Positions 1,461-6,297 of a stretch of 27,738 nucleotides of DNA are shown in pieces. The stretch spans positions 1 to 27,738 of the IMG/VR virus record IMGVR_UViG_3300017776_000134, one strand, 5' to 3'. The DNA is from a virus. Every line of letters starts with the position of its first letter. Position 1 is the first letter of the stretch. Below the pieces are notes generated by a model, which saw only the letters and a program-made list of their open reading frames with translations, had not been told where the DNA came from and ran no database searches. A program made the translations under genes and the position numbers.

Positions 1461-1507
1461 TCCGTTCCTTCAGTCGGCTTTTGCGTCTCCCGTGGGAGAT
1501 GAACGAA
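1461..1507 (-). promoter_or_regulatory. Glutamine riboswitch candidate (downstream-peptide/glnA type)
   Basis: The minus strand folds into a compact aptamer. P1 pairs 1507-1501 (TTCGTTC) with 1467-1461 (GAACGGA). Inside it is an apical hairpin TCTCC/GGAGA (1499-1495 with 1490-1486, loop CACG), followed by unpaired GACGCAAAAGCCGACTGAAG. The flanking CGTTCA...GAAGGAACG core matches, from memory, the glnA and Downstream-peptide RNA motifs, which are glutamine riboswitches of cyanobacteria and marine phages. It lies 37 nt upstream of the DUF4278 ATG, as expected for the downstream-peptide class. The Shine-Dalgarno GGAGA (1436-1432) repeats the apical arm and could be sequestered by the TCTCC arm, suggesting translational control. 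A covariance-model search would decide. Confidence 0.7.
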
Positions 1508-1533
1508 CCCGTTCCGAGTCGGCTTACTTGCGT
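1507..1533 (-). repeat. Duplicate of the aptamer 3' half, upstream of the riboswitch
   Basis: On the minus strand GACGCAAGTAAGCCGACT followed by CGGAACGG closely repeats the aptamer's own GACGCAAAAGCCGACT followed by GAAGGAACGG. No matching 5' half (CGTTC plus hairpin arm) is visible further upstream, so this is a half-copy and not a full tandem aptamer. Its GAACG (1514-1510) can pair with the aptamer's CGTTC (1505-1501) across a 4-nt loop, competing with P1. The 68-aa gene's stop codon (1524-1526) lies inside it. Confidence 0.6.
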
Positions 1534-1837: not shown

Positions 1838-1851
1838 GTAATATTAACTAC
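1838..1851. promoter_or_regulatory. GTA-N8-TAC box (NtcA-like), distal
   Basis: GTA ATATTAAC TAC is a second match to the NtcA consensus in the same 117-nt gap, overlapping the nrdB stop codon. A TAN3T element (TAAAAT, 1818-1813) follows 19 nt downstream on the minus strand, near but not equal to the usual spacing of about 22 nt. Confidence 0.3.
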
Positions 1852-2987
1852 AATTTAAACCCAGCGAATGTGTCTTTCTTGACATCCTGTTTGATTCCAC
1901 CCACAACATAGGACTCAACCTCTGTTTCTTGGGGTGCAACTTGAAGTCCTTTGGATGAAATCCAGTGTTGTGTCCAAGGTAATGGATTGTTACGAGCAGG
2001 GATGTCATAGATTGGTTTTAATCCTATCGCTTTCATACGGCGATTGGCAATCCACTCTACATAATTACCTAATAATTTGTCATTCAAACCAATCATACTT
2101 CCATTTTTGAAGAGGTATTTTGCCCATTGTTTCTCTTCATCAACTGTCTTCTTAAACATTCTAATTGTATTCTCTCTTTCCTCTTCTGCGATCTGTTTCA
2201 TCTCTGGATCATCACCTTCATTCCATTTGTTCAATATCTGTTGTGTGACAACTACATGCTGGTTCTCATCCCGACTGATGAGGGATATGATTTTAGCAGA
2301 TCCTTCCATGAGTTTGAGTTCACCGAATGCAAATGAACATGCGAATGATACATAGAATCGTATTCCTTCCAGAATATTGACATTGGCGATTGCCCTATAG
2401 AGTTTCCGTTTGAGTTCATGTCTGTCATAAGTCCCTGTTGGATGTCCTTCCACTGCATACTTCCACAGATTACCAGAATCGTACTCGTGAGCATCGTTCA
2501 CAAAATCATCATATGATGATGTTACACTTTCCGCACGTTCTAATATTTTCTCGTCTTTTAAAATTGTATCGAATACTTCGGCTGGATCTGAGTAAACATT
2601 CTTGATGATGTATGTGTATGAACGACTATGGATCATCTCCATAAATTGCCAGACGTTCATGCACGCTTCCAACTCTGGAAGAGAACAATATGGTGCGAAT
2701 GCCATACCAGGCGCCCTACCTTGAACAGAGTCTAACATAATCTGATATTTCAGATTTGAAGTAAAGATGTGCTTCTGTTCTGATGTTAAGTTCTGATAAT
2801 CAGAACGGTCTTTTTGTAGGGAAACTTCTTCTGGTCTCCAGAAATAGCCTAATTGTTGTTGAGTTAATTTCTCGAACACAGGATATTTAGACCCATCATA
2901 TCTTTGAACTCCTAAAGGTTGTCCAAAAAACATGGGTTGTTTCTTTGTTTCGACTTCTTTTGTATTGAAAACAGTCAGACCTGACAC
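1848..2987 (-). CDS. nrdB: Ribonucleotide reductase class Ia beta subunit
   Basis: This 379-aa protein generates the tyrosyl radical that NrdA uses to reduce ribonucleotides to deoxyribonucleotides. All di-iron ligands are visible: D86 (LLDSVQG region), E117 and H120 (FMEMIHSRSY), E207 (ILEGIR), E241 and H244 (DENQH). The radical tyrosine is Y124, four residues after H120 as in E. coli NrdB. The C-terminus (KKDTFAGFKL) is the expected tail that docks to NrdA. The start is GTG at 2987, supported by GGAGA seven bases upstream; the first in-frame ATG would remove 18 residues. It follows nrdA by 14 nt and is clearly co-transcribed with it. Confidence 0.97.
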   Translation of the reverse strand: MSGLTVFNTKEVETKKQPMFFGQPLGVQRYDGSKYPVFEKLTQQQLGYFWRPEEVSLQKDRSDYQNLTSEQKHIFTSNLKYQIMLDSVQGRAPGMAFAPYCSLPELEACMNVWQFMEMIHSRSYTYIIKNVYSDPAEVFDTILKDEKILERAESVTSSYDDFVNDAHEYDSGNLWKYAVEGHPTGTYDRHELKRKLYRAIANVNILEGIRFYVSFACSFAFGELKLMEGSAKIISLISRDENQHVVVTQQILNKWNEGDDPEMKQIAEEERENTIRMFKKTVDEEKQWAKYLFKNGSMIGLNDKLLGNYVEWIANRRMKAIGLKPIYDIPARNNPLPWTQHWISSKGLQVAPQETEVESYVVGGIKQDVKKDTFAGFKL

Positions 2988-3001
2988 GTTATTCTCCGTT
3001 G

Positions 3002-5296
3002 CTAAATTTTACAGGATTCACAATCATCTTCTTGTTCAACAGAACAATCTTCTAATAATTTATTTAAACTTTCTTTGACATCAACCTCGTCAGTTTTGAG
3101 GTCATTTGTGTTTTGATAGTAGGATGTTTTCCAACCGTATTTGTATGTAGTTAAAAAATCATTTGCCATCACCGACACTGGAACTTCATTGTCAGGATAA
3201 TTCTCTGGATTATAACTCCAGTTACCAGATATAGCCTGATCAAAGAATTTTTGCATCACAGATATAATTTTAATATATCCTTCATTATCTTTCATATCCC
3301 AAAGAATTGTATAGTTATTCTTTAGATGTCCGTAGGAGGGAACAATCTGTTTAAGAGGCCCTTTCTTTGACTTTTTAACGGACAAGTAGTCTCTAGGTGG
3401 TTCGATTCCATTGGTTGCGTTTGACACAATGGAACTGCTCTCTGAAGGCATTTGTGCGGACAGAGTGCTGTGCCTGAGTCCGTGTTCCAAGATAGATGAC
3501 CTAAGACTATTCCAATCATAGTTGAGTTTGTTTGGTACGATCTCATCTACTTCAGTCTTGTAAGTATCAATCGGTAATATACCACCAGAATATTTTGTAC
3601 GATTAAAATATTCACACTTACCTTTTTCTTTTGCAAGTTGATTAGATGACTTTAACAGATAATATTGAAATGCTTCAGTAAGATCATGAGTCAATTGCCA
3701 TGCAGATGAATCACCATAGTGTTCTCCGTTCTTTGCCAAGTAGTGTGCAAGACCTATGAATCCTATACCAAGAGATCTTCTTTTTTTAGTTGAATTCTCT
3801 GCAGCCTTTACTGGATATCCCTGATAGTCAATTAACTCCTCCAGACCCCTTACAGATAGGTCACAGAGGTCTTCTAATTCCTCTAGCCTATTAATCTTTC
3901 CAACATTAATTGCGGATAAAATACAGAGAGCGATCTCTCCATCAGGGTCATCAATGTGTGAGATTGGTTTTGTGGGTAAAGTAATTTCTTGACAAAGATT
4001 ACTCATGCTCACTTTATCTATAAAAGATGAATGTGAGTTACAATGATCAATATTCATCAGATAAAGACGACCAGTTTCTGCACGTTCCTTAAGAATGTTC
4101 AAGATTAATTCTTGAGCATCTACTTGTGACTTAGGAACTGATTCATCTAACTCATATTGAGTGTATAGTTCATCAAAAGATTCCGTACCAAAACTATCAT
4201 AAAGCCCTGGCACATCATGAGGAGAAAAAAGTGTGATCTTCTCGTTTGTAATAAACCTTTCATAAAATAATTTACTCAATTGAATACTATAGTCTAATTT
4301 CCTTACACGATTATCTTCTGTTCCTTTATTGTTCTTGAGTACAATTATGTCTTCTATTTCTTTGTGCCAGATTGGGAAGTGGACAGTCGCTGATCCACCT
4401 CTAATGCCGTTCTGAGTGCAACATCTGACAGTACTTTCAAACTTTTTGAGGAAAGGTACAACGCCTGTGTGCTGTACTTCTCCACCCCTGATTTTACTGT
4501 TGATGCCACGGATGCGGCCTGCGTTGATACCGATACCCGCCCTTTGTGCAACATATTTGCCGATAGCCATATCAGAACTAAAGATGCTATCGAGGGTGTC
4601 ATCAGAATCAACAAGAACACAGCTAGCAAATTGTCTAAGAGGAGTTCGTACCCCGCCCATGATAGGCGTGGGGATGTTGATTCGGTGTTTCGAGATTGCT
4701 TGGTAGTATCTGGTGACATAATCGAGTCTTGTTGATTGTGGATATTCTGCAAATATAGTCATAGCAATCAAAAGATACATGAACTGAGGAGTTTCATAAA
4801 CTTGCCCAGAACTTCTATCTTGCACAAGATATTTATCAGCTACCTGTCTAAGTCCAGCATATGTAAATATAAAGTCACGGTCATGATCAATGATATCATT
4901 TAAAATTTCTATCTCTTCTTTTGTGTACTTAGATAAAATATCAGCATCATAGACATCCTTCTCAATACAATCAGTAATGTGATCATATAAGTGTGGAAGT
5001 TCCCATAGTCTACCATATAGACTTTTACGAATCGCATACAATAACAATCTTGCGGCGACGTATTGATAGTTTGGATTGTCTAAACTAATCAGATCACTTG
5101 CAGATCTTATCAATATTTCCTGTATTTCAGCAGTTGTAATACCATCATAAAACTGAATACCTGATTGTATTTCAACTTGACTTGCAGAAACCCCTGCAAG
5201 ATTCTTACAAGCCTCTTCGCACATGATGTGCATTTTCTCAAGGTCTAATGATTCGATTGAACCATCTCTTTTCTTTACTTTTGTTCCGTTGCTCAT
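3002..5296 (-). CDS. nrdA: Ribonucleotide reductase class Ia alpha subunit
   Basis: This 764-aa catalytic subunit supplies dNTPs for phage replication. An N-terminal ATP-cone-like region (KVKKRDGS...) precedes the barrel. Key motifs are FASCVLVDSDD (first redox Cys), SNLCQEITLPTKP (thiyl-radical Cys and catalytic Glu, the E. coli C439/E441 equivalents), LCILSAINVGKI (second redox Cys), MPSESSS (phosphate binding), a YY pair in KTSYYQN for radical transfer, and a C-terminal CESCKI thiol pair that takes electrons from thioredoxin or glutaredoxin. The ATG at 5296 overlaps the primase stop by 4 nt (ATGA) and has GGAAGAAGG upstream. An upstream TTG at 5308 is less likely. No intein or split was seen. 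Confidence 0.97.
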   Translation of the reverse strand: MSNGTKVKKRDGSIESLDLEKMHIMCEEACKNLAGVSASQVEIQSGIQFYDGITTAEIQEILIRSASDLISLDNPNYQYVAARLLLYAIRKSLYGRLWELPHLYDHITDCIEKDVYDADILSKYTKEEIEILNDIIDHDRDFIFTYAGLRQVADKYLVQDRSSGQVYETPQFMYLLIAMTIFAEYPQSTRLDYVTRYYQAISKHRINIPTPIMGGVRTPLRQFASCVLVDSDDTLDSIFSSDMAIGKYVAQRAGIGINAGRIRGINSKIRGGEVQHTGVVPFLKKFESTVRCCTQNGIRGGSATVHFPIWHKEIEDIIVLKNNKGTEDNRVRKLDYSIQLSKLFYERFITNEKITLFSPHDVPGLYDSFGTESFDELYTQYELDESVPKSQVDAQELILNILKERAETGRLYLMNIDHCNSHSSFIDKVSMSNLCQEITLPTKPISHIDDPDGEIALCILSAINVGKINRLEELEDLCDLSVRGLEELIDYQGYPVKAAENSTKKRRSLGIGFIGLAHYLAKNGEHYGDSSAWQLTHDLTEAFQYYLLKSSNQLAKEKGKCEYFNRTKYSGGILPIDTYKTEVDEIVPNKLNYDWNSLRSSILEHGLRHSTLSAQMPSESSSIVSNATNGIEPPRDYLSVKKSKKGPLKQIVPSYGHLKNNYTILWDMKDNEGYIKIISVMQKFFDQAISGNWSYNPENYPDNEVPVSVMANDFLTTYKYGWKTSYYQNTNDLKTDEVDVKESLNKLLEDCSVEQEDDCESCKI

Positions 5297-6297
5297 ACCT
5301 TCTTCCAAAGATTTAATTTTAGTTTTGCTGTTAATTCAGAGTAAGTACTACTTTCTAGTATAGTACATATATTATGTTTTGCAAGAATCATTTCATTTAC
5401 GTCTTTCTCCTTTACATTTGATGGCCAAATTACTACTTTATCTCCACGGTTGATGAGTTTTTCAATTCGACTGACGATCTCTCTGTTGCGAGGTTCGTTA
5501 TCAAAAACCCAAATATAATCGCCCCAACCAAACGTCCGAATATCAACATCGGAGCCGCACATAGCAACCGAGTTTTCCACGAAGAGGGAATCGAAAGGCC
5601 CTTCGAGGATGTAAATAGGTTTTTTGGTATTGATCTTTTCCAGTCCATAAAGTTTAGGTGCATCCTCATCTAACATCACAGTAATATACCTCATCTTCGA
5701 TGTCGGGTCAAGTGATCTACCCTGATAACCAAAGAGTTGGCCATCTGGATATCGAAGAGGGATGATGATTCTCTGATCATCGTGTTTTGTATCATCGAAG
5801 GTCTTCTTATGCCTGTTTGTCCACTCTTTAAAATTAGGACAGTAGTAAAGTTTGCTAAGAATGTCTTCCTTTATACCACGATTGATGAGATACTTTTTCG
5901 CTCGGTGTGTAGTATTTAGTTCTGAGATTTTTACAAGATCATCACATATATCTTTCTTTCTAAACTTAGGTGAAGTAAATGTAAATTGTGGTTCATCGAC
6001 TACAAAATTCTTTCCACCAGCAAACCCTTCCTTAAACTTTTCCATAATGTATTGTTTATGAAGAGTCGAATCAATCTGTTTAAGAAGATTATTAAATGAC
6101 AAACTGGCACCACAATTGTGACACTTAAAGTTTGTATTTGTTTTGACCTGATAGATATATCCTCTTGCCTTATTCTTATGTTTCTGTGAATCACCACAGA
6201 TAGGACAACGAAAATTATATAGGTTTGCCTTCACTTTTTTAAATCTATCTAATCGTGAAGACACCAAGCCAATATACTTGGAATCAATTATATCCAT
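5293..6297 (-). CDS. 61: DNA primase, T4 gp61 type
   Basis: A 334-aa primase that makes RNA primers at the fork together with helicase gp41. An N-terminal zinc finger has CPIC (C31, C34) and CHNC (C59, C62), as in T4 gp61 (342 aa). A TOPRIM domain follows, with the catalytic Glu in ILEGPFD (E232) and an aspartate cluster in VFDNEP (D266). The C-terminus overlaps the nrdA ATG by 4 nt. The start codon at 6297 lies within an inverted repeat (ATATCC, six bases, GGATAT) and no Shine-Dalgarno is visible, so initiation may be weak or regulated. It is separated from gp41 by 8.9 kb. Confidence 0.93.
   Translation of the reverse strand: MDIIDSKYIGLVSSRLDRFKKVKANLYNFRCPICGDSQKHKNKARGYIYQVKTNTNFKCHNCGASLSFNNLLKQIDSTLHKQYIMEKFKEGFAGGKNFVVDEPQFTFTSPKFRKKDICDDLVKISELNTTHRAKKYLINRGIKEDILSKLYYCPNFKEWTNRHKKTFDDTKHDDQRIIIPLRYPDGQLFGYQGRSLDPTSKMRYITVMLDEDAPKLYGLEKINTKKPIYILEGPFDSLFVENSVAMCGSDVDIRTFGWGDYIWVFDNEPRNREIVSRIEKLINRGDKVVIWPSNVKEKDVNEMILAKHNICTILESSTYSELTAKLKLNLWKKV

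Follow-up and report, generated by a model that had tools for sequence, protein, structure and literature searches.

What RNA is formed around a small phage gene that ends inside a repeated part of a glutamine riboswitch is the question raised by this locus, which lies on the minus strand of the window (the whole 27,738-nt stretch of viral DNA that was analyzed). Using Rfam, a single element was detected, glnA/Glutamine (RF01739; 1507-1459, minus strand), with a score of 37.1 bits against a cut-off of 35 and with core positions deleted. An earlier note on this DNA had described a near copy of the aptamer 3' half directly upstream. This repeat is real: positions 1534-1510 of the minus strand read GACGCAAGTAAGCCGACTCGGAACG, copying GACGCAAAAGCCGACTGAAGGAACG of the aptamer 3' half, shuffled windows gave 0 pattern matches at three or fewer mismatches, and the same two cores were kept in hundreds of loci. 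The stop codon of a 68-aa open reading frame (ORF) does lie in the repeat (TAA, 1526-1524). However, the statement that no 5' half is visible did not hold. The 5' half, CGTTCATCC, was found at 1741-1733 on the minus strand, past the 68-aa ORF, the ATG of which (1730) it immediately precedes. Judged from the sequence, the upstream element is split, not half-duplicated, and a half duplication or decay was ruled out because the 5' half is present. The suggestion that it is the remnant of a tandem riboswitch is likewise not supported, since the upstream element is complete.

The split element (element I) begins on the minus strand with CGTTC (1741-1737), A, TCC, G and T, followed by the ATG of the ORF. 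CGUUC (strand a) was assigned to the 5' strand of an outer P1 from its sequence and from its same position before the ATG in 79 of the 79 checkable loci found with the ORF-A protein. The 5' strand of helix P2-I, UCC-G-U (1735-1731), was assigned from sequence and from covariation of the helix in relatives. The 68-aa ORF, ORF-A (1730-1524), falls within the P2-I loop. The 3' half consists of ATAGGA (1538-1533), CGCAAGTA (1532-1525), AGCCGACT (1524-1517), C, and GGAACG (1515-1510). AUAGGA, assigned by sequence and covariation to the 3' strand of P2-I, doubles as the end codons of ORF-A. UCC(G)UAU pairs with AUAGGA, using the A and U of the start codon and leaving G1732 bulged; P2-I of the window, in which this one bulged G is required, is weaker than in most relatives. 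The core CGCAAGUA (1532-1525) follows the canonical order in PMC5393176 and in host aptamers; it ends with AGUA (1528-1525), one strand of the E-loop, and the UAA stop of ORF-A (1526-1524) is located inside this aptamer core. The P3 5' strand, AGCCGACU (1524-1517), covaries with 1479-1472.

Downstream of element I, GAACG (1514-1510; strand b), the loop GGUU (1509-1506), and CGUUC (1505-1501; strand c) were assigned as the inner P1 from the consensus fold. In element II, which comes after GGTT, CGTTC is followed by A, TCTCC-CACG-GGAGA, CGCAAA, AGCCGACT (1479-1472), GAA, and GGAACG (1468-1463). UCUCC-CACG-GGAGA (1499-1486) forms the compact hairpin P2-II, the loop of which is occupied by a second ORF, ORF-B, in relatives. 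The P3 3' strand, AGCCGACU (1479-1472), was assigned by covariation, and GAA (1471-1469) was assigned as the second E-loop strand from the order in PMC5393176 and in host aptamers. GAACG (1467-1463; strand d) was assigned as the 3' strand of the outer P1 from the consensus fold, the RNAfold structure of the window RNA, and its invariance. GGAACG is followed by CTTTAGGAG and then by the ATG (1424) of a 38-aa DUF4278 ORF (1424-1308; PF14105, 29.9 bits), the putative regulated gene.

The gene within helix P2

The locus was recovered by blastn from 59 phage records, each a cyanophage or marine single-cell virus record. For comparison, 25 regions were fetched and 240 loci were obtained by two exact-pattern scans of IMG/VR, and about 350 related loci were available overall. 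The distance from each 3' half to the nearest upstream CGTTC was 12-60 nt or 140-240 nt, and intermediate values were almost absent. An ATG-started ORF was present between the halves in all 233 distinct long inserts; its start was 9-21 nt (in nearly all cases 9-11) downstream of the first base of CGTTC, and its stop fell between −18 and +13 relative to the CGCAA core. In most loci the stop codon lay within the conserved core, as the TAA of AAGTAAG in ORF-A and as the TGA or TAA of CTGAA or CTAAA in ORF-B. The layouts in the first locus set were compact-split (117), split-split (48), compact-compact (40), and split-compact (13), the last being that of the window. To avoid selecting for the RNA, loci were also collected with the ORF-A or ORF-B protein only, which gave 80 and 29 loci, respectively. 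Both halves flanked the ORF in 79 of 79 checkable ORF-A loci and 27 of 27 checkable ORF-B loci, and the remaining three run off their contigs. This comparison showed that the whole 68-aa gene occupies the loop of helix P2 in a split glnA-type (glutamine-I) element.

Both ORFs are under purifying selection (pN/pS of 0.19 for ORF-A and 0.28 for ORF-B). ORF-A corresponds to phrog_6471; no Pfam match was obtained for it, and its AlphaFold2 model (mean pLDDT of 80) had no PDB match at E < 0.001. ORF-B is annotated as a hypothetical protein, T4-GC 430 or 541. Among close relatives of the window, ORF-B is present in two loci (L274 and L275) and cleanly absent from three (L273, L276, and L277). The aptamer 3' strand (1538-1524 in the window; in ORF-B loci, for example, L009 and L021) also encodes the conserved C-terminus of the embedded proteins, which is IGRK in ORF-A and WDAKAD or WDAND in ORF-B; the same bases therefore serve both RNA and protein. 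A host origin was also considered, and the layout was absent from the host chromosomes of 121 genomes around a Prochlorococcus genome, with the exception of one contig. Six GTDB contigs (L267-L272) matched the phage composite. They lie in assemblies named Dehalococcoidia, Nonlabens, and Euryarchaeota and are probably mis-binned or contaminating phage contigs.

The P2 strands before the ATG and at the end of the ORF vary among relatives yet stay complementary. Examples are TCCGATG/CATCGGA, TCCTATG/CATAGGA, TCCAATG/CATTGGA, and GCCTAA/TTAGGC, together with TCTTATG/CATAAGA of phage S-TIM5 and GATTATGG/CCATAATC. At the first five P2 positions, standard pairs accounted for 91.8% in element I and 97.5% in element II, compared with at most 63% when the strands were slid by 1-3 positions. 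As a control for relatedness, the 3' strand of each locus was swapped with that of the most similar relative differing on both strands. For ORF-A, the native strand paired better than the swapped one in 92 cases and less well in 4; for ORF-B, it did so in 218 and 4 cases, respectively. These are counts of sequences and, because of relatedness, overstate how many independent events occurred. In 52 of 129 ORF-A loci and 67 of 233 ORF-B loci, the complete ATG lay inside an uninterrupted helix. Coding constraint does not explain the complementarity, because the 5' strand is mostly outside the ORF.

Pairing between the two elements

The core of element I has the form CGCAAGTA...C-GGAACG and that of element II CGCAAA...RAA-GGAACG. 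Type-I cores were followed by a type-II core in 262 of 267 cases; of the five exceptions, four are cut off by a contig end and one, L224, is not. Relatives lacking the partner element, which the earlier note had named as evidence against its reading, were essentially not found: L224 was the only one away from a contig end. The comparison showed that the elements are a near-obligate pair. In L075 a triple layout was seen (compact I, split I, and compact II), the first type-I core of which has no matching type-II core of its own length. In L223 and L263 the inner CGTTC of element II is lost and the 3' half is kept; these loci count against the composite fold proposed below and are possibly decaying or alternative forms.

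The stretch after AGTA in element I is complementary to the stretch before RAA in element II. AGTCG, the short form, is matched by CGACT, and AGCCGACN, the long form, by N'GCCGACT. Compensatory changes were found (AGTCA/TGACT, ATTCG/CGAAT, and AATCG/CGATT), and the last pair was T-A in 147 loci, A-T in 31, and G-C in 2. In the short form, pairing is complete over the five positions in 135 of 135 loci; in the long form, two C-A mismatches recur at fixed sites. Swaps with relatives favored the native partner 302 to 0, although independent events are far fewer than these counts. RNAalifold alone did not recover P3, choosing a local 2-bp helix on the alignment used; P3 was therefore counted explicitly, and in the 38 compact forms 81.7% of its positions were paired, compared with 0.4-36% when slid. 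In the canonical glutamine-I aptamer, the E-loop strands AGUA and GAA flank P3 within one molecule (crystal construct, PMC5393176), as they do in host glutamine-I sequences. In the phage loci, AGUA occurs only in element I, and GAA or AAA occurs only in element II. Because each element supplies one E-loop strand, the canonical core would be obtained only from both elements together. On comparative evidence, these results show that P3 forms between the elements. We consider it likely that the split and compact elements constitute one composite RNA in which each has its own P2, an estimate that covers the whole of this best explanation, including its topology and action.

All four P1 strands match in sequence, and the topology of P1 was approached by structure prediction. 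GAACG (1514-1510) is complementary to CGTTC (1505-1501), and the hairpin that they form had been interpreted as a built-in competitor of the aptamer. The hairpin itself was predicted by the consensus of the 38 compact relatives, in which RNAalifold, supplied with no structure, joined the first CGUUC to the last GAACG and formed a second helix from the inner GAACG and CGUUC. The hairpin would not compete with the whole aptamer but would be the inner P1 of a nested fold, and once formed it excludes a simple side-by-side fold. All 45 energy comparisons (45 of 45) favored the nested fold over a pair of side-by-side aptamers; a knotted form could not be scored in them. The inner P1 spacer is always 3-6 nt. 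In the RNAfold minimum free energy structure of the window RNA, the outer P1 is formed and P2 is closed at its base across the ORF; the stability of the whole is modest (z of −1.7). P1 is invariant in every parsed locus, so that covariation lends no support to its topology. An apparent TGTTC variant of P1 came from wrongly parsed loci, in which the protein match started at residue 12. The glnA annotation of phage S-CREM1 spans 99 nt (164330-164232; PMC9964418); it corresponds to both elements and is consistent with the nested alignment. Taken at the strength of a prediction, P1 is nested, with an outer helix between the first CGUUC and the last GAACG and with GAACG-GGUU-CGUUC as the inner P1.

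Proposed switching and alternative readings

The start of the DUF4278 gene mostly lies 32-37 nt after the composite. Among the 219 loci with one of the four two-element layouts, 212 have a DUF4278-type ORF downstream, as checked by its YRG motif. A Shine-Dalgarno sequence precedes 285 of 297 DUF4278 starts compared with 0 of 128 ORF-A starts, and matches upstream of ORF-B probably represent GGAG in the inner hairpin. CURAAG of element II complements CUUYAG, which overlaps the Shine-Dalgarno sequence of DUF4278. The partner contained TTC in 53 loci with GAA and in 0 of 65 loci with AAA. In the window, CUGAAG (1473-1468) has two possible partners, one within the aptamer and the other CUUUAG at the ribosome-binding site, this complement lying in CUUUAGGAG (1441-1433). 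CURAAG is also part of P3, the E-loop, and the base of P1, and aptamer folding and masking of the Shine-Dalgarno sequence would therefore be mutually exclusive. From this exclusion, an ON switch is predicted for DUF4278, and in the ON state the RNA is also expected to close over the embedded start codons. Host glutamine riboswitches turn DUF4278/IF17 genes ON (reviewed in PMC6316151). A scan for promoters and terminators near the element found nothing above chance.

These sequence features suggest that glutamine switches DUF4278 on and at the same time closes the embedded genes, and we infer glutamine to be the ligand from the invariant core and the target gene. At low glutamine, CUGAAG of element II would pair with CUUUAG at the DUF4278 ribosome-binding site and turn DUF4278 off, and the start codon of the embedded gene would be free. 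When glutamine is present, the composite would close, P2 would occlude the embedded start codon, and the DUF4278 ribosome-binding site would be released. Ribosomes ending the embedded gene would stop inside the aptamer core and keep it open. The proposal that translation could affect folding is well supported by this anatomy, the start codon abutting or lying in P2 and the stop codon lying in the conserved core in most loci. We infer the reciprocal control, how the embedded genes would respond, and the part played by ribosomes at termination. There seems to be an even chance that this RNA is a gene-enclosing riboswitch in which the start codon lies in an aptamer helix paired with the end of the same gene and the stop codon lies in the sensing core. 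Glutamine binding and translation would then be exclusive, and the RNA would toggle between embedded phage proteins at low glutamine and, at high glutamine, a DUF4278 protein resembling the start of the glutamine synthetase inactivating factor IF17.

Other readings of the same data were weighed. Two ordinary tandem aptamers, the first split by an ORF and each binding glutamine alone in a pseudo-cooperative manner, would agree with the 157 doublets and 4 triplets of glutamine riboswitches reported in PMC9481103 and with the fact that the compact element of the window reaches the Rfam cut-off alone. However, P3 covaries between the elements and not within them, no single element has both E-loop strands, the pair is obligate and in fixed order, and the side-by-side energies were all worse; this reading is therefore quite improbable. 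It is also unlikely, if somewhat less so, that the same P2 and P3 are combined with a P1 within each element, giving a knotted (kissing) pair like the glutamine-II pseudoknot or two P1 arrangements that exchange as the switch. The matching of all four P1 strands would permit this, and element I followed by P3 has the glutamine-II order, L009 scoring 33.1 with the glutamine-II model. Against it, the canonical glutamine-I order sets GAA beside the closing P1 strand, which fits nesting, the spacers are never shorter than 3 nt, as a hairpin requires, and RNAalifold gives the nested form, although it is unable to predict knots.

The inverted repeats might instead be the ends of small mobile gene cassettes that pair for DNA recombination and not as an RNA switch. 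The clean gain and loss of ORF-A and ORF-B among close relatives (L273, L276, and L277 versus L274 and L275) would suit such cassettes, but the repeats covary rather than remain fixed, compact loci without a cassette retain the same helices, the ORFs are found at this site only, and the conserved unpaired core positions match the glnA aptamer. We regard this reading as very improbable. A conserved composite with embedded ORFs could also be ligand-independent, acting by translational coupling, or could sense a ligand other than glutamine. Ribosomes alone could drive the change because the embedded stops lie in the core, and the phage core is CGCAAGUA where hosts have CGGAAGUA. On the other hand, P1 and the core are invariant across very diverged phages, the compact forms persist with no embedded gene to couple, and the downstream gene, DUF4278, is the usual target of glutamine riboswitches; this possibility is rather unlikely.

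Relation to known RNAs and neighboring genes

The composite resembles glutamine-I (RF01739) in having P1 beside the P2 5' strand, the core C-G-x-A-A-G-U-A before P3, GAA after P3, a closing P1, and a DUF4278 target, that is, a gene of nitrogen metabolism. Its P2 and P3 helices are likewise conserved by covariation. It differs in that P3 and the E-loop are built from two elements, so that AGUA and GAA flank one P3 only in the composite and not in a single compact aptamer. Furthermore, one or both P2 loops hold a complete gene, and a second P1 and P2 lie inside P3. The split element I of the window was not detected by the RF01739 model. The composite is best regarded as a variant of the known glutamine riboswitch class.

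In the tandem glutamine riboswitches (Weinberg 2010, PMC2864571; Sherlock and Breaker 2022, PMC9481103), two close glnA-like elements likewise stand upstream of one gene. Each such element has been interpreted as an independent unit acting pseudo-cooperatively, and arrangements in which an ORF intervenes were set aside in those surveys. In contrast, the phage elements share P3, so that neither aptamer is complete alone, and ORFs lie inside P2, as does the 68-aa ORF in P2-I. Compact phage forms may be among the tandem riboswitches counted in those surveys, and our results suggest that some 'tandem' glutamine riboswitches should be re-read as composites. Glutamine-II (Downstream-peptide, RF01704; structure, PMC6698751) shares the segments CGUUCA, P2, CGCA, and GGAACGG and DUF4278-type targets in marine picocyanobacteria, but the phage RNA lacks a matching P3 pseudoknot directly after GGAACGG. 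The window scored 22.2 with RF01704, below the cut-off of 33, which L009 (33.1) and L024 (33.0) just reach. Some group I introns carry an ORF in a peripheral loop. The phage element is similarly a structured RNA bearing a protein gene in a loop; it differs from them in that it involves no splicing and in that the start codon abuts or lies in a helix and the stop codon lies in the RNA core, so that translation and folding overlap directly.

Annotations of glnA in phages exist (PMC9964418 and PMC9004378). No form containing an ORF or sharing P3 was found in these two papers or in those on tandem glutamine riboswitches (PMC2864571 and PMC9481103), and phage forms may have been mentioned earlier elsewhere. 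If the proposed reading is true, a helix of an aptamer can enclose an entire translated gene while its individual base pairs are maintained, and a metabolite, two or three small genes, and the ribosome would be linked in less than 500 nt. Standard searches miss the gene-enclosing form: Rfam finds the compact element alone in the window, and the tandem survey left out elements with an intervening ORF. The composite would also be a candidate nitrogen sensor for abundant marine T4-like cyanophages, testable in the cultured phages P-HM2, P-SSM4, S-PM2, and S-TIM5.

Some features of the neighborhood were also recorded. No manA RNA reached the cut-off in the window; in relatives, matches to manA RNA with 162-188 bits were located within a few hundred bases of the composite (L009, 1039-1224; L007, 282-467; L003, 1108-1309). 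On the same strand of the window, ORFs in 1848-5308 were judged by eye to encode ribonucleotide reductase-like subunits of 379 and 768 aa, and the ORF at 290-1045 a HAD-like phosphatase. In relatives, nrdB lies upstream and talC downstream of the composite.
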